Assembly: GCF_013391955.1 (NCBI RefSeq) | Contig: NZ_JABUOH010000023.1 | Coordinates: 1-41,363, forward strand | Direction of reading: 5' to 3' | Length of the DNA: 41,363 nucleotides | Source of the DNA: Candidatus Phytoplasma pruni | Lineage (GTDB): Bacteria > Bacillota_I > Bacilli_A > Acholeplasmatales > Acholeplasmataceae | Shown here: one piece after another, positions 29,602-35,738 of the stretch | How positions within the stretch are numbered: the first letter of the stretch is position 1 | Layout of the letters: each line of letters starts with the position of its first letter | Translations under genes and position numbers: made by a program | The notes under the pieces: generated by a model | What the model was told of the DNA's origin: nothing | Database searches by the model: none | The model's input: only the letters and a program-made list of their open reading frames with translations

Positions 29602-30699
29602 ATGACATTAAGTAAATCTTACGATCCTTTGAAAAAACAAAGATTACAAATTTTGGATTCAGAAGGAAATGTAGTTAATCCACAATTAGAACCAAAAATA
29701 CCTGCAGAAAAACTGTTAAAAATGTATAAAACTATGGTTTTAGCAAGAGTTTCTGATATTAAAGCGGTTCAATACCAACGTCAAGGCAGAATGCTTTCTT
29801 ACGTTATTAACAGAGGACATGAAGGCGGTCAAGTCGGTTCAGCAGCAGCTTTAGAAGACCAAGACTGGGTTTCACCTTATTTCCGTGATATTGGGGTTTA
29901 TTTATACCGTGGTATTCCTTTAGAAAATATCTACCTTTATTGGTATGGTAACGAAAAAGGTTCTAAAATGGATCCTTCTAAACGTATTTTACCAGTTAAC
30001 ATTATTATTGGTTCAGGAATCAATATTGGTGCTGGTTTAGCTTTAGCAAGTAAATTGCAAAACAAAAAAGAAGTTACAGTAGCGACTATTGGTGATGGCG
30101 GAACAGCTCATGAAGAATTTTATGCTGGTTTGAATTACGCATCCGTTTATAAAGCTCCTTTAGTAGTATTGATTCAAAACAATCAATACGCTATTTCTAC
30201 TCCAAGAAAAATCGCTTCTAACTCTGAAACTTTAGCACAAAAATCCTATGCTTTCGGTATTCCTGGTATTCAAGTAGATGGTAATGACGTTTTAGCTGTT
30301 TATGCGGCTGTTAAAGAATTTACTGAAGCAGCACGTAACGGCGAAGGAGCTAGTTTAATTGAGATCTTTACTTACCGTATGGGAGCTCATACAACTAACG
30401 ATAACCCTAACTTATACCGTTCTAAAGAAGAAGAGGAAGAATGGAATAAAAAAGATCCTATTGAACGTTTTAAAAAGTATTTGTTGAAAAAAAACGTTTT
30501 AACTGAAGAAATGGTAGAACAAATCAATCAAGAAGCAGAAAAACACGTTTCCGAAGTACATGAAAAAATTACTTCGTACGGCGCTAATGTAGAACCGATT
30601 GAAATTTTTGAACATCTTTACCATGAAATGACACCTCAATTAAAAGAACAACACGCAGAATACGAACAATTTTTAAAATCAAAAGAAGAAGGTAAATAA
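29602..30699 (+). CDS. pdhA: pyruvate dehydrogenase E1 alpha subunit
   Basis: A 365-residue subunit that binds thiamine diphosphate and decarboxylates pyruvate. The cofactor motif runs from GDGGT at about residue 164 to QNNQYAIST near 190. MGAHTTNDNPNLYR near 270 is the conserved loop usually carrying regulatory Ser in other organisms. An AAGGAG site lies 13 bases before the ATG. It pairs with pdhB three bases downstream. Confidence 0.97.
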   Translation: MTLSKSYDPLKKQRLQILDSEGNVVNPQLEPKIPAEKLLKMYKTMVLARVSDIKAVQYQRQGRMLSYVINRGHEGGQVGSAAALEDQDWVSPYFRDIGVYLYRGIPLENIYLYWYGNEKGSKMDPSKRILPVNIIIGSGINIGAGLALASKLQNKKEVTVATIGDGGTAHEEFYAGLNYASVYKAPLVVLIQNNQYAISTPRKIASNSETLAQKSYAFGIPGIQVDGNDVLAVYAAVKEFTEAARNGEGASLIEIFTYRMGAHTTNDNPNLYRSKEEEEEWNKKDPIERFKKYLLKKNVLTEEMVEQINQEAEKHVSEVHEKITSYGANVEPIEIFEHLYHEMTPQLKEQHAEYEQFLKSKEEGK

Positions 30700-30701
30700 A
30701 A

Positions 30702-31679
30702 ATGGCTTTAATGAATTTATTGCAAGCGGTTAATCATACCTTAGATCTCCAATTAGCTAAAAACCCTAAAGTAGTGGTTTTTGGTCAAGATATTGGTAAA
30801 TTAGGAGGAGTTTTCCGTGTTACTGCAGGATTGCAAAAAAAATACGGAGAATCTCGTGTTTTCGATACTCCTATAGCTGAATCTGCTATCGTTGGTAGTG
30901 CGATCGGAATGTCTATGAACGGTTTAATTCCTGTAGCTGAAATTCAATTTGATGGTTTCCTTTATGTGGGATTAGAAGATTTAATCGCTCATGCTGCGAG
31001 AATGAGAAATCGTACTCGTAACAGTTTTTCTTGTCCTATGGTTTTAAAAGTTCCTGTTGGTGGCGGAGTTAAAGCATTAGAACATCACTCAGAGAGTTTA
31101 GAAGTTATTTTAGGTTCTATTCCTGGTTTAAAAGTGGTAGTTCCTTCTAATCCTTACGACGCTAAAGGTCTTTTAATTGCCGCTATTAATAGCCCGGATC
31201 CAGTTGTTTACATGGAACCTAAATATTTATATCGTGCAGGAAAACAAGAAGTTCCTGAAGAAGAATACGAAACAGAAATTGGTAAAGCGAACGTAGTTAA
31301 AGAAGGTACAGATGTAACTGTAATCGCTTGGAGTTCAGCTGTTTCCATCGTTCAATCTGCTTTAGAAAAACTAGAAGCTGATGGCATTTCTGTAGAATTA
31401 GTGGATTTAAGAACTATTAATCCGATTGATAGAGAAACAGTTCTTAATTCTGTGAAAAAAACTGGTAGATTAGTTGTAGTACATGAAGCTACTAAAACTT
31501 ATGGACCAGCTGGTGAATTAATTACTTTAGTAAATGAATATGCTTTTGATCATTTAAAAGCTGCTCCTAGTCGTGTAACAGGTCATGATATCATCATGCC
31601 TTTAGCAAGAGGAGAATATCACCAAGTTTTAAACGCTGATAAAGTAATTTATGGCGTAAAAAAAGCTTTAAAAAAATAA
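30702..31679 (+). CDS. pdhB: pyruvate dehydrogenase E1 beta subunit
   Basis: A 325-residue partner of PdhA, forming the alpha2-beta2 E1. FGQDIGKLGGVFRVTAGL and FDTPIAESAIVGSAIGM near the N-terminus are the conserved active-site regions, with GGGVKALEHHSES near 125 and VVHEATKTYGPAGEL near 255. Starts three bases after the pdhA stop. Full length. Confidence 0.97.
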   Translation: MALMNLLQAVNHTLDLQLAKNPKVVVFGQDIGKLGGVFRVTAGLQKKYGESRVFDTPIAESAIVGSAIGMSMNGLIPVAEIQFDGFLYVGLEDLIAHAARMRNRTRNSFSCPMVLKVPVGGGVKALEHHSESLEVILGSIPGLKVVVPSNPYDAKGLLIAAINSPDPVVYMEPKYLYRAGKQEVPEEEYETEIGKANVVKEGTDVTVIAWSSAVSIVQSALEKLEADGISVELVDLRTINPIDRETVLNSVKKTGRLVVVHEATKTYGPAGELITLVNEYAFDHLKAAPSRVTGHDIIMPLARGEYHQVLNADKVIYGVKKALKK

Positions 31680-31720
31680 TTTAAACAAAAAAATTTAAAA
31701 AAATGAATGAGGGTAATAAT

Positions 31721-31957
31721 ATGTATGAATTAAAATTTGCTGATATAGGCGAAGGAATTAACGAAGGAACTGTTTTAACTTGGAACTGTAAAGTTGGCGA
31801 CAAAGTTAAAGAAGGCGATGTTTTAGTAATCGTTGAAACTGATAAATTACAAGCTGACATAACTGCTCCTAAAACTGGTACTATTACTAAAATTGGTTAC
31901 CAAGAGGGCGAAAATGTTAACGTTGGAGATGTTTTAGCTGTTATTGAAGAAGAATAA
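31721..31957 (+). CDS. stand-alone lipoyl domain of pyruvate dehydrogenase E2
   Basis: A protein of only 78 residues that is one complete lipoyl domain: GEGINEGTVL, then VETDKLQADI with the lipoyl Lys at residue 42, then VNVGDVLAVIEEE and a stop. Lys42 matches the usual position when counted from this ATG, which has GAGGG 7-8 bases upstream. An upstream in-frame ATG at 31703 has no ribosome site. In most bacteria this domain is the N-terminal arm of E2, joined by a flexible linker to the subunit-binding and catalytic domains. Here it ends with its own stop and the catalytic domain follows as a separate gene in another frame. Confidence 0.9.
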   Translation: MYELKFADIGEGINEGTVLTWNCKVGDKVKEGDVLVIVETDKLQADITAPKTGTITKIGYQEGENVNVGDVLAVIEEE

Positions 31958-31983
31958 TTTAAATAAAAAAGGACGTTTTAAAA

Positions 31984-32766
31984 ATGACAAATAATAACGA
32001 CAATGTTTTAAACCCTACAAAAGAAGCTGTAGAAAACAACACAAATACTAACACAGAAGACGTAGAAATTAAAAAAATTTCTCGTTTAAGAAAAACAATT
32101 GCTAAAAAAATGAGCATTTCCAAAACAGTTATTCCTGAAGTAACTTTAATGGATGAAGTAGATATTACTAATTTAGTAGCTTTAAGAACGCAAATGAAAC
32201 CAGTAGCTCAAGAAAAAGGCATTAAATTAACTTATATGGCTTTTATCGCTAAAGCGGTTGTTTTAGCTTTAAAAGAATATCCTGTTTTTAACGCTAGTTT
32301 TGATGATGAAAAAGAAGAATTAATCATTAAAAACTATATTAACTTAGGCATTGCTATTGACACTAAAGATGGCTTAATTGTTCCTAACATTAAAAACGTT
32401 GATAATTTAACTGTTTTAGAGTTAGCGAAAGAAATCCACACTTTATCTGTTAACACAGTGGAAAGAAAACTACAATTACCTCAATTACAAAAAGGTACTT
32501 TTACTTTAAGTAATTTTGGCGCTATTGATATTACTTATGGTACACCAATTATTAATCATCCGGAATTAGCTATTCTTGGTATTGGTAAAATAGTTAAAAA
32601 ACCAATAGTTAAAAACGGCGAAATTGTTGTAGCTGATATGTTACCTCTATCTTTAGCGATCGATCACCGTATTATTGATGGTGCTGACGGCGGAAGATTA
32701 TTGAAAAAAATTAAAGAATTATTAAACGATGTTAAAACTTTAGAAAATGATTTCACTGCTTTATAA
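31984..32766 (+). CDS. pdhC: E2 catalytic domain (dihydrolipoamide acetyltransferase) without lipoyl domain
   Basis: A 260-residue acetyltransferase that moves the acetyl group to coenzyme A. Residues 1-27 are an Asn/Thr-rich linker-like tail. The catalytic domain begins ISRLRKTIAKKM and ends with the active-site motif DHRIIDGADGG, the His at about 228. No peripheral subunit-binding domain is visible between linker and catalytic domain, although that domain normally docks E1 and E3. It has its own ribosome site (AAAAAGGACG) and lies 26 bases after the lipoyl-domain gene in a different frame. Confidence 0.92.
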   Translation: MTNNNDNVLNPTKEAVENNTNTNTEDVEIKKISRLRKTIAKKMSISKTVIPEVTLMDEVDITNLVALRTQMKPVAQEKGIKLTYMAFIAKAVVLALKEYPVFNASFDDEKEELIIKNYINLGIAIDTKDGLIVPNIKNVDNLTVLELAKEIHTLSVNTVERKLQLPQLQKGTFTLSNFGAIDITYGTPIINHPELAILGIGKIVKKPIVKNGEIVVADMLPLSLAIDHRIIDGADGGRLLKKIKELLNDVKTLENDFTAL

Positions 32767-32814: not shown

Positions 32815-34194
32815 ATGGAAAGATATGATATTTTAATTATTGGCGGAGGACCTGGCGGTTATACCTCCGCTATTAAAGCGTCCCAAATGGGAGCTAAAGT
32901 TGCTTTAGTAGAAGACCATAAATTAGGCGGAATTTGTTTAAATTACGGTTGTATACCAACTAAAGCTTTTTTAAAAAGCGCTAAAATTTTTGACCTTTTA
33001 AAACATTCTAAAGAATACGGTATTGAAACTAGTACGGATGTCGAAGTAAATTGGACTTCTGTATTAGAACGTAAAAACAAAATAGTTAAACAATTAACTA
33101 ACGGTATTTCTTTCTTAATGAAAAAAAATAAAATTGATGTTTATAACGGTTTTGCTGAGGCTTTATCAGCTCATCAAGTTCAAGTAGGTGATAAAGTTTT
33201 AGAAACTAAAAAACTTATTATCGCTACGGGAGCGAGTGCTTTTATTCCTCCGATTAAAGGCGCTAAAGAAGCATACGAAAACAAATACTTATACACTAGT
33301 AAAGAATTAGTTCAATTGGAAAAATTTCCGAAAAAATTAGTTATTATTGGTGGTGGAGTTATTGGTGTAGAGTTTGCGACTATTTTTAATAAATTTGGCG
33401 CTGAAGTAATTATTTTAGAAAGAGCGAACTCTATCTTAAACGTGATGGATAAAGATATTGTTGATGCTTACACGAAAAAATTAAAAAGCAACCAAATTAA
33501 AATTTTAACTGAAGCTGCAGTAGTGGAAATCGATAATAATAAAGTGCATTACACTTATGAAAACGAAACACACGTAGAAGAAGCTGATGTTGTTTTAATG
33601 GCAACTGGAACTAAACCTAATTTAAAAGGGATAGAAAAGTTGAATTTAGAAACTGACAGAGTAGGCGTTATGACAGACGGCTTTTTAAAAACTTCTGTAG
33701 AAGATGTTTATGCTATTGGCGATGTTAACGGTAAATATATGTTAGCTCACGTAGCGAGCCACGAAGGAATTATCGCTGTTACTCATGCTTTAGAAGCTGA
33801 TGCTCATTTAAAACCAATGAATTACGATCGTGTTCCTTCCTGTGTTTACGGTTTCCCTGAAATCGCCACTATTGGTTGGATTGAAGAACAAGTGAAAGCT
33901 AAAGGAATTGAATACAAAGTTTCTAAATTTCCTGTTAAAGCGATCGGTAAAGCTTTAGCTGACGGCGAAACAGATGGTTTTGCCAAATTAATCGTTGATA
34001 AAAAAGATCTTAAAGTTTTAGGAATGCATATTTTCTCTTATAATGCTACTGAATTAATTAGTGAAATTGGTGTAACTATGGAATTAGAAGGAACAGCACA
34101 TGATGTTGTTCACGCTATCCACCCACATCCAACTTTATCTGAATTAACTTTAGAAACTTTTTTAGGCGCGATTGATAAACCAATCCATATGTAA
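32815..34194 (+). CDS. lpd: dihydrolipoamide dehydrogenase (E3)
   Basis: A 459-residue FAD flavoprotein reoxidising the lipoyl group with NAD. It has GGGPGGY (FAD binding) at the N-terminus, the redox disulfide GGICLNYGCIPTKA (Cys41 and Cys46), GGGVIGVEFA for NAD, and HAIHPHPTLSE with the catalytic His near the C-terminus. No N-terminal lipoyl domain is fused to it, unlike E3 of several mycoplasmas. The ATG at 32815, with AGAGAAG upstream, is preferred to the TTG one codon earlier. Confidence 0.97.
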   Translation: MERYDILIIGGGPGGYTSAIKASQMGAKVALVEDHKLGGICLNYGCIPTKAFLKSAKIFDLLKHSKEYGIETSTDVEVNWTSVLERKNKIVKQLTNGISFLMKKNKIDVYNGFAEALSAHQVQVGDKVLETKKLIIATGASAFIPPIKGAKEAYENKYLYTSKELVQLEKFPKKLVIIGGGVIGVEFATIFNKFGAEVIILERANSILNVMDKDIVDAYTKKLKSNQIKILTEAAVVEIDNNKVHYTYENETHVEEADVVLMATGTKPNLKGIEKLNLETDRVGVMTDGFLKTSVEDVYAIGDVNGKYMLAHVASHEGIIAVTHALEADAHLKPMNYDRVPSCVYGFPEIATIGWIEEQVKAKGIEYKVSKFPVKAIGKALADGETDGFAKLIVDKKDLKVLGMHIFSYNATELISEIGVTMELEGTAHDVVHAIHPHPTLSELTLETFLGAIDKPIHM

Positions 34195-34311: not shown

Positions 34312-35073
34312 ATGTTAATTGATACTCACGCTCATCTTAATTTAGATGATTATTCTAAAGATTTAAAAGATGTTATAAATAGAGCTATAAAAAACGATGT
34401 TCAATATTTTATCGTCCCTGGTTTAGATCAGAAAACGAACGAAAAAGCCATCGAATTAGCCCTTCAAAACCCTGAAATCAAAGTCGCTGTGGGGATTCAT
34501 CCGTCTTATGTGACTAATGAAGATCCTTTCAGTATTGAAAAATATTTAAAACTCCCTCAAGTGGTGGCTGTGGGTGAAATTGGTATTGATTTATATCATG
34601 AACAAAAAACCTTGCCATTACAACAAAAAACTTTAAAAATTCAAGTTGAATTAGCGATCAAATATGATTTACCCATCATTTTGCACGCTCGTTCTTCTTT
34701 TGAAGAAATATATGACATCTTGTTGCCTTATAAAAACAAAATTAGAGGCGTTTTCCATTCTTTAGTAACCGATTTGGAAGCAGCCCAAAGAGCGATCGAT
34801 TTAGGATTTTACGTAGGTATCGGTGGGATTGTGACATATGAAAAAGCTTCGGAAGTTCATACTTTAGCGAAAGAATTACCTTTAGATAAAATCTTATTAG
34901 AAACTGATTCACCTTTTTTAACCCCTTCTCCGGGAAAAAAATCACATAGAAATGAACCCGCTTTGGTTAAATTAGTAGCTGAAAAAATCGCGAGTTTAAG
35001 AAACATTACTTTAGAAGAAGTAGCCGAACAAACTACTCAAAACGTTAAAAAACTGTTTTTACCTCATCTTTAA
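34312..35073 (+). CDS. tatD: TatD family metal-dependent DNase
   Basis: A 253-residue TIM-barrel hydrolase. DTHAHLN (His6, His8), VAVGEIGIDLY with the metal-bridging Glu, ILHARSSFEE, GVFHSLV and LLETDSPFLTP with the final Asp complete the metal site. Family members act as 3'-5' DNases in DNA quality control. FHSL replaces the more common FHCF, a mild divergence. Ribosome site AAAGAGAAA. Confidence 0.93.
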   Translation: MLIDTHAHLNLDDYSKDLKDVINRAIKNDVQYFIVPGLDQKTNEKAIELALQNPEIKVAVGIHPSYVTNEDPFSIEKYLKLPQVVAVGEIGIDLYHEQKTLPLQQKTLKIQVELAIKYDLPIILHARSSFEEIYDILLPYKNKIRGVFHSLVTDLEAAQRAIDLGFYVGIGGIVTYEKASEVHTLAKELPLDKILLETDSPFLTPSPGKKSHRNEPALVKLVAEKIASLRNITLEEVAEQTTQNVKKLFLPHL

Positions 35074-35123
35074 TTCATTCCCTTAACAACTTGATAATTG
35101 TTAGCAAGAAAGGTTTGTTTGTT

Positions 35124-35738
35124 ATGAAATTTACTAAATCAGAATCTAATCAAATGGTTAATTTAGAACAAAATTCTGAAGCATGGCACAAGCATAGAAG
35201 CAACTATATTAACGCTTCAGAAGTTGCTGCTATTATGGGGTTAAATCCGTTTGAATCTAAACAAGCCCTTTTTAAAAGAAAACTTTTTAAAGAAAAAATC
35301 GAAGATAATAATGCTATGCGTCACGGTAGACGTTTAGAACCAGAAGCGAGAAATTTTTTTAATGAAGTGAACAATATGGAATTCGTTCCTGCTGTCTTTA
35401 CTAAAGATTTTATGTCCGCTTCTTTAGATGGTTGGCATCAAGAATCTAACAGCATTTTAGAAATAAAATGTCCTATTTCTTATAACAGCCCTTCTTGGAG
35501 CAAGTTTTTGTTAAATAACGAAATACCTATGTATTATTACGCTCAAGTGCAAGCTCAACTCTTTTGTTCTGATACAGAAAAAGCGTTTTTCTTAGTGTAT
35601 CAAACGTTTCAGAGCAGCAAGGTTAAGGAAATCCACAGAGACCCTAAATTTATTGAAGAAATGTATCAAAAAGCTCATGTTTTTTATAATCTTTTAAATG
35701 AAGCTAAAGCGACTTTAGATAAGTTACAAGAAAAATGA
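35124..35738 (+). CDS. YqaJ-type (lambda exonuclease-like) nuclease
   Basis: A 204-residue protein of the YqaJ/lambda-exonuclease fold. It shows the usual opening WHKHRSNYINASEVAAIMG (about 18-36), MRHGRRLEPEAR with the conserved Glu, ASLDG with the metal-binding Asp, and LEIKCP, the ExK catalytic signature, followed by a Tyr-rich YYAQVQAQL helix. All key residues are present. These enzymes digest one strand from a DNA end and normally come from phages, paired with a RecT/Bet annealing protein. No recT-like gene is here. I take the ATG at 35124 with AGAAAGG upstream; the frame opens at 35091. The stop is TGA. Confidence 0.88.
   Translation: MKFTKSESNQMVNLEQNSEAWHKHRSNYINASEVAAIMGLNPFESKQALFKRKLFKEKIEDNNAMRHGRRLEPEARNFFNEVNNMEFVPAVFTKDFMSASLDGWHQESNSILEIKCPISYNSPSWSKFLLNNEIPMYYYAQVQAQLFCSDTEKAFFLVYQTFQSSKVKEIHRDPKFIEEMYQKAHVFYNLLNEAKATLDKLQEK

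Follow-up and report, generated by a model that had tools for sequence, protein, structure and literature searches.

The E2 component of pyruvate dehydrogenase (PDH) in Candidatus Phytoplasma pruni is encoded as two proteins, a free-standing lipoyl protein and a separate catalytic protein, and neither carries the peripheral subunit-binding domain (PSBD). The split is real and not an artefact. It goes back to a single event, in the ancestor of a major clade of phytoplasmas, with loss of the linker and the PSBD. The split PDH likely works with a diffusible lipoyl carrier and probably without a cage, although function, lipoylation and assembly are all inferred.

The window, meaning the whole 41,363-nucleotide stretch of DNA that was analysed, holds the pdh operon on its + strand in the order E1 alpha, E1 beta, lipoyl protein, E2 catalytic protein, E3. 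The first gene, pdhA (29602-30699), encodes an E1 alpha of 365 aa (TIGR03181, 438 bits, cut-off 411), and pdhB (30702-31679) encodes an E1 beta of 325 aa. The lipoyl protein (31721-31957) is 78 aa long and consists of a single lipoyl domain only, as judged from the ORF, the profile match and an AlphaFold model. Its predicted lipoylated residue, Lys42 in ETDKLQAD, is encoded at 31844-31846, and a lysine occupies this position in 18/18 split species. Read from its first ATG, the lipoyl ORF spans 31703-31957 (84 aa) and ends in TAA, and an 84-aa protein starting at 31703 remains possible. Of the two ATGs, that at 31721 is to be preferred as the start: the sequence shows a Shine-Dalgarno-like GAGGG (31709-31713) 7 nt before it, and no ribosome site ahead of 31703. 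A 26-nt intercistronic gap (31958-31983) with AAGGA at 31969-31973 leads to pdhC (31984-32766), which is in a different frame and encodes an E2 catalytic protein of 260 aa without a lipoyl domain or PSBD. Residues 1-26 of this protein (31984-32061) form an Asn/Thr-rich tail in which no PSBD remnant was recognised. The active-site motif DHRIIDG (32662-32682) is followed by a rewritten C-terminal tail of 27 aa (32683-32763, ending LLNDVKTLENDFTAL), compared with 23 aa ending LLNxPTLLLLS in the cage type. The last gene, pdhD (32815-34194), encodes an E3 dihydrolipoyl dehydrogenase of 459 aa without a lipoyl domain (TIGR01350, 528 bits). The first-pass annotation had described a 78-residue lipoyl ORF ending in TAA and, 26 bases later in another frame, a 260-residue E2 ORF; coordinates and description both held. 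Beyond the operon, a TatD-like gene (34312-35073) is followed on its 3' side by an ORF (35091-35738) that resembles a YqaJ/lambda-exonuclease-type nuclease, on a reading of the sequence only.

The 78-aa protein meets the criteria for an E2-type lipoyl domain, namely a PF00364 match, a lysine in the E-T-D-K turn and the lipoyl fold. PF00364 is its sole confident family (86.1 bits, 73/78 residues), and its AlphaFold model (pLDDT 89) has the lipoyl-domain fold, with TM scores to lipoyl domains of up to 0.95. Other identities were considered and rejected. The protein scores below the cut-offs for glycine-cleavage H protein (PF01597, 18.8 bits against 22.2) and for biotin carboxyl carrier protein (TIGR00531, 34.6 bits against 115.2), and its motif is ETDKLQ, not MKM. 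A lipoyl domain fused to E3, as in mycoplasmas, is ruled out by the absence of PF00364 from the 459-aa E3 and by the single PF00364 match in the genome.

The 260-aa protein matches PF00198 only (284.7 bits, residues 26-253), and with DHRIIDG intact it satisfies the PDH E2 acyltransferase-domain criterion, which includes DHxxxDG. There is no lipoyl domain within its chain, the stop codon and intercistronic gap lying between the two ORFs. Over its full length it is 94% identical to the E2 of Ca. Phytoplasma pruni CX and 93% identical to that of milkweed yellows phytoplasma MW1, the nearest named relatives, which places the window near the X-disease group of phytoplasmas. Its AlphaFold model, built from 5 sequences, has a pLDDT of 69 (below 50 for residues 1-24) and is too weak to judge oligomer contacts; the last helix of the model (251-258) is only suggestive.

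The PSBD profile PF02817 finds no match in the lipoyl or E2 protein even at E<=10, and its best score across the whole genome (790,517 bases, 97% complete) is 7.6 bits, against a cut-off of 23.7. The same genome contains one PF00198 match, and profile search found no second lipoyl or E2 gene in it. The claim of the first-pass annotation that the PSBD is missing from both ORFs thus held, with the profile search negative in the proteins and in the genome. It had also named results that would refute it, a PSBD found by profile or a second complete E2 gene, and neither was found.

The split is a property of a deep clade and not of one genome, which goes beyond what had been claimed from the window. 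Taking one genome per GTDB species, we searched 29 Phytoplasma species genomes and found the E2 catalytic domain in 28. E2 is split in 18 of these 28 PDH-bearing species (the window and 17 others), which have a separate ORF for the lipoyl domain (about 74-97 aa) and an E2 frame of 245-272 aa from stop to stop. No PSBD over the cut-off was found in the 18 split genomes. The remaining 10 Phytoplasma species have lipoyl, PSBD and catalytic domains in one frame of 421-463 aa, with PSBD scores of 55-60 bits. Outside Phytoplasma, all 12 Acholeplasmataceae genomes read in detail have the fused lipoyl-PSBD-catalytic E2. The first-pass annotation had proposed comparing other phytoplasmas with Acholeplasma to see whether the split is shared; it is shared among phytoplasmas, and the Acholeplasma relatives examined are fused. 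Many of the split genomes are drafts, 75-94% complete, and a PSBD could have been overlooked in a single one, though scarcely in every one of the 18.

By matching contigs, the split species include Ca. P. pruni, MW1, Ca. P. phoenicium and Ca. P. luffae. We take the phytoplasma genomes G047, G066 and G050 to be probably OY-M, AYWB and Ca. P. australiense. Both the rpoB tree and a tree of E1 alpha, E1 beta and E3 unite the split species in one clade, with support of 100/100, and a single split event accounts for the pattern. The sister of the split clade on both trees is G056, a fused lineage that we take to be probably Ca. P. mali AT. The lipoyl-E2 gap ranges from 18 to 77 nt across the 18 split species, and the relative frames 0, 1 and 2 occur in 7, 4 and 7 of them. 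On the rpoB tree the split clade also holds one species without PDH, G074. Nested as the sister of G073, it retains no E1, E2 or lipoyl domain but has kept a full-length LplA, a lipoate ligase without a recognised substrate.

Both split genes have been retained by purifying selection through deep divergence. Across nine pairs of split species, the lipoyl and E2 genes have dN/dS values of 0.15-0.41, in a range comparable with the 0.27-0.43 of the fused gene in three pairs. None of the 18 split species has lost the lipoyl lysine or the DHRxxDG motif. In 13 of them E2 has a Shine-Dalgarno-like core ahead of it, against 3.5 expected from shuffles, and in 9 such a core lies ahead of the first ATG of the lipoyl ORF, against 3.3 expected. 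Lipoate ligase LplA is present in 29/29 Phytoplasma genomes, thus in all 18 split ones. The first-pass annotation had argued against simple decay, and this holds on the strength of 18 species, one origin, purifying selection, intact motifs and LplA.

Single genomes depart from this picture in detail. In G068, a split species, the lipoyl protein (L057, reverse strand) has no usual start (DIGEGI..) and its first strand is missing, and the LplA match (C11) spans only positions 76-199 of 200. These short proteins may reflect early decay in one species, or the draft assembly. In Ca. P. pruni CX, the LplA frame (C9:16162-16716) has one in-frame TGA, which could be a sequencing error or mark an early pseudogene.

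The C-terminal tail of E2 has changed along with the domain organisation, a point not made in the first-pass annotation. The trimers of typical E2s are linked into 24- or 60-mers by a hydrophobic 3-10 helix at the C-terminus (PMC10581250, PMC10415282). Among the PSBD-bearing E2s of phytoplasmas and relatives, the tail after DHRxIDG is exactly 23 residues in 21/22, and nearly all of these tails end LLLLS, MLLLN or similar. The sole exception is G056, with a tail shortened to 18 residues. The tails of the split E2s have 22-34 residues, 25 in most, and lack the LLLLS-type end in 18/18 species; the Pro is lost in 14/18, and the endings include LEKNIF, LENDFTAL and, in four species, NPSxLIE. The E2 of the window, with its replaced end, accordingly does not have the hydrophobic trimer-trimer tail. 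These changes suggest that the cage may have been given up at or before the split, although the oligomeric state is an inference. That split E2 forms no 60-mer cage, and perhaps only trimers, is a possibility resting on weaker inference from the changed tail. We also compared the new tail with the Phe-containing insertion of actinobacteria. The Corynebacterium glutamicum AceF query combined a printed fragment with a tail that the database confirmed. The split tails, mostly longer and ending ..LExxIF/Y or ..LENDFTAL, gave no convincing alignment with the AceF ending RLETANFEGDLQL, and the idea is kept only as a lead.

Alignment columns of E1 alpha, E1 beta and E3 were compared between PSBD-bearing and split species. 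Around residue 73 of E1 alpha, 18/18 split species have GHEA and 19/20 PSBD-bearing relatives have GQEA. This residue aligns with Q81 of Geobacillus stearothermophilus E1 alpha, where Q81E is reported to be a neutral substitution (PMC2663715); we therefore treat the change from Q to H as a clean clade marker and draw no mechanism from it. The last 14 residues of E1 beta carry a net charge of +3 to +7 in split species, compared with 0 to +1 in PSBD-bearing phytoplasmas. The meaning of this basic tail is uncertain because the tails of PSBD-bearing Acholeplasma are likewise basic (+1 to +5). Clade-specific E1 beta substitutions include E216 to I/V/M and G211 to S. Asp344 and Glu431 are PSBD-contact positions of G. 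stearothermophilus E3. The comparison gave no clear PSBD-contact signal in E3: Asn stands at the Asp344 equivalent in both phytoplasma E3s compared, those of the window and L052, and neither the split nor the PSBD-bearing group is constant at the Glu431 equivalent.

A similar separation has occurred independently in Mycoplasma-type genomes. We scanned 394 genomes across the class and searched for the PSBD in those with short E2 frames. Several of these frames (228-234 aa) were affected by the use of TGA as a Trp codon, and seven loci were re-read with code 4. Four genomes remained without a recognised PSBD after re-reading: G121, G137, G363 and G443. In the first three, an E2 catalytic protein (about 233 aa) is directly followed by a free lipoyl ORF (about 78 aa), an order opposite to that of phytoplasmas, and E1 is located elsewhere. 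In G443, E2 has no PSBD and E3 no lipoyl domain; a free ORF at a distance of about 150 kb is the sole lipoyl gene. These fissions are separate from the phytoplasma event, since relatives in the same genera (G253, G129) keep the PSBD. The G443 E3 (L112 5700-7271) has a cysteine-rich N-terminal extension (MSECKKTCQTSCQSANSCATTSKC..) where its relatives have a lipoyl domain. Two other relatives in the class, G128 and G277, have two tandem PSBDs in E2. At a Mycoplasma-type locus (L109 4902-5144), an 80-aa ORF just 5' of E2 resembles only an inter-domain linker (APAVVGTLKVSNDLLDF), similar to the linkers of fused relatives (ASVVGEVKVSDALLSF). Retention of a linker motif as its own protein could hint at a binding function, which is inferred from sequence.

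How might PDH function with its parts separated? In the mechanism we propose, LplA would lipoylate the free lipoyl protein, which E1 would reductively acetylate. The acetylated protein would diffuse to E2, where its acetyl group would be passed to CoA by an acetyltransferase activity that is itself inferred. E3 would then reoxidise it, giving it a carrier role like that of H protein in glycine cleavage, by analogy. The PSBD is what attaches E1 or E3 to the core (PMC2663715), and in its absence E1 and E3 therefore lack their usual attachment to E2. Excised lipoyl domains are substrates of E1 and free lipoic acid is not (PMC6270654), and actinobacterial OdhA is served by lipoyl groups supplied in trans (PMC10415282). 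Loss of the tether would be cheaper because diffusion distances are short in a very small cell, which is an argument only. The first-pass annotation had inferred a diffusible lipoyl carrier, and this is supported as the best reading and strengthened by the Mycoplasma-type repeat, with the biochemistry inferred. Its weak points are that lipoylation, PDH activity and the lack of assembly through other contacts all rest on inference, without biochemistry. A bolder reading, for which belief and doubt seem to us equally justified, is that PDH is no longer a multienzyme complex here and in some mycoplasmas but consists of free E2 trimers and unattached E1 and E3 linked by diffusible lipoyl protein. 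The cage would have dissolved stepwise, the tail first, a state seen in G056, and then the PSBD and tether.

One rival to our reading is that the complex has been re-docked by new non-covalent contacts, through the E1 beta tail, the E2 N-terminal tail or the acidic lipoyl protein, so that the carrier stays bound. The first-pass annotation had held that E1 and E3 must be recruited in some other way or not at all; loss of the usual PSBD attachment is supported, and we consider re-docking unlikely. In its favour are the basic E1 beta tails, the acidic lipoyl domains (about -5 to -11) and the clade-specific E1 beta changes at E216 and G211. However, the E1 beta tails vary in sequence and length among split species, and basic tails also occur where the PSBD is present, in Acholeplasma. 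The E2 N-terminal tail is unconserved and modelled with low confidence, and the tethered lipoyl domain is equally acidic. The E2 and E1 beta tail changes could also be mere drift. A PSBD that persists in the E2 tail or another protein but is too diverged to recognise is very unlikely. Profiles can miss diverged domains of 35 residues, and marginal matches of 7-13 bits occur in unrelated long ORFs, but the N-terminal tails of the split E2s are short (about 9-35 residues), mostly Asn/Lys/Glu-rich, and too short or simple in most species to hold the domain, whereas the PSBDs of the ten fused phytoplasmas score far above any such match.

It is equally improbable that E2 is a two-piece pseudogene and PDH is on its way out. 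These genomes are reductive, the nested G074 lacks E1, E2 and lipoyl genes, and the lipoyl protein and LplA of G068 are truncated. Nevertheless, both ORFs are open in 18 species over a large divergence with low dN/dS and intact motifs, ribosome sites before E2 exceed expectation, and where PDH genes are lost they vanish together. Finally, nothing beyond the short gap speaks for a frameshift, whether an error of sequencing or assembly or a programmed one yielding a normal fused E2. Sequencing error and a recoding signal are excluded because gaps of such varied length occur in all three relative frames, in 18 independent assemblies, under purifying selection. Moreover, the PSBD is gone from the DNA itself and not merely out of frame.

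The free-carrier arrangement that we favour shares features with several known systems and matches none of them. Among solved structures, the best relative for the catalytic domain is the PDH E2 of G. stearothermophilus, a 60-mer core (1b5s, 3duf; E 6e-67), and the order E1 alpha, E1 beta, E2, E3 is that of the canonical Gram-positive operon. In G. stearothermophilus, lipoyl, PSBD and catalytic domains form one chain and the PSBD holds E1 and E3; in the window there are two chains, no PSBD and a different C-terminal tail. PDH of the Mycoplasma hyopneumoniae type, whose lipoyl domain has been transferred to E3 (Matic 2003, cited in PMC7873978), likewise has a mollicute E2 without its own lipoyl domain, a precedent absent from the first-pass annotation. 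There E2 has generally retained its PSBD, with E3 serving as the tether of the lipoyl domain (L114, L115), unlike the free lipoyl protein and missing PSBD of the phytoplasma split. The AceF/OdhA system of C. glutamicum, a trimer only, also has an E2 C-terminal tail altered from the cage type, and its lipoyl groups act in trans on OdhA. AceF, however, still has its lipoyl domains and PSBD together on a single chain, its Phe-containing insertion differs in sequence, and the split-phytoplasma trimer is only inferred. Glycine-cleavage H protein and LbpA of sulfur oxidisers (PMC6067878) are small, free, single-lipoyl carriers that visit several enzymes, as proposed here, but the lipoyl protein of the window is not a member of either, its sequence being that of an E2-type lipoyl domain. 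No description of a split phytoplasma E2 was found in the open-access literature searched, which leaves most subscription journals uncovered. Phytoplasma genome papers treat PDH as an ordinary complex when they list its genes (PMC10577292, PMC3322544), and it is misleading to annotate phytoplasma pdhC as a normal E2.

Substrate channelling has its textbook example in the swinging arm that is tethered within a giant particle. The split lineage gave up the tether, the docking domain and perhaps the cage, yet its enzymes are under selection. The mycoplasma repeat suggests a general route of simplification for very small cells, in which diffusion distances are short. Since fused and split versions occur in close relatives of one genus, the purpose of the tether is directly testable. 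In a large branch of plant-pathogenic phytoplasmas, the textbook multienzyme PDH may run as separate soluble parts.
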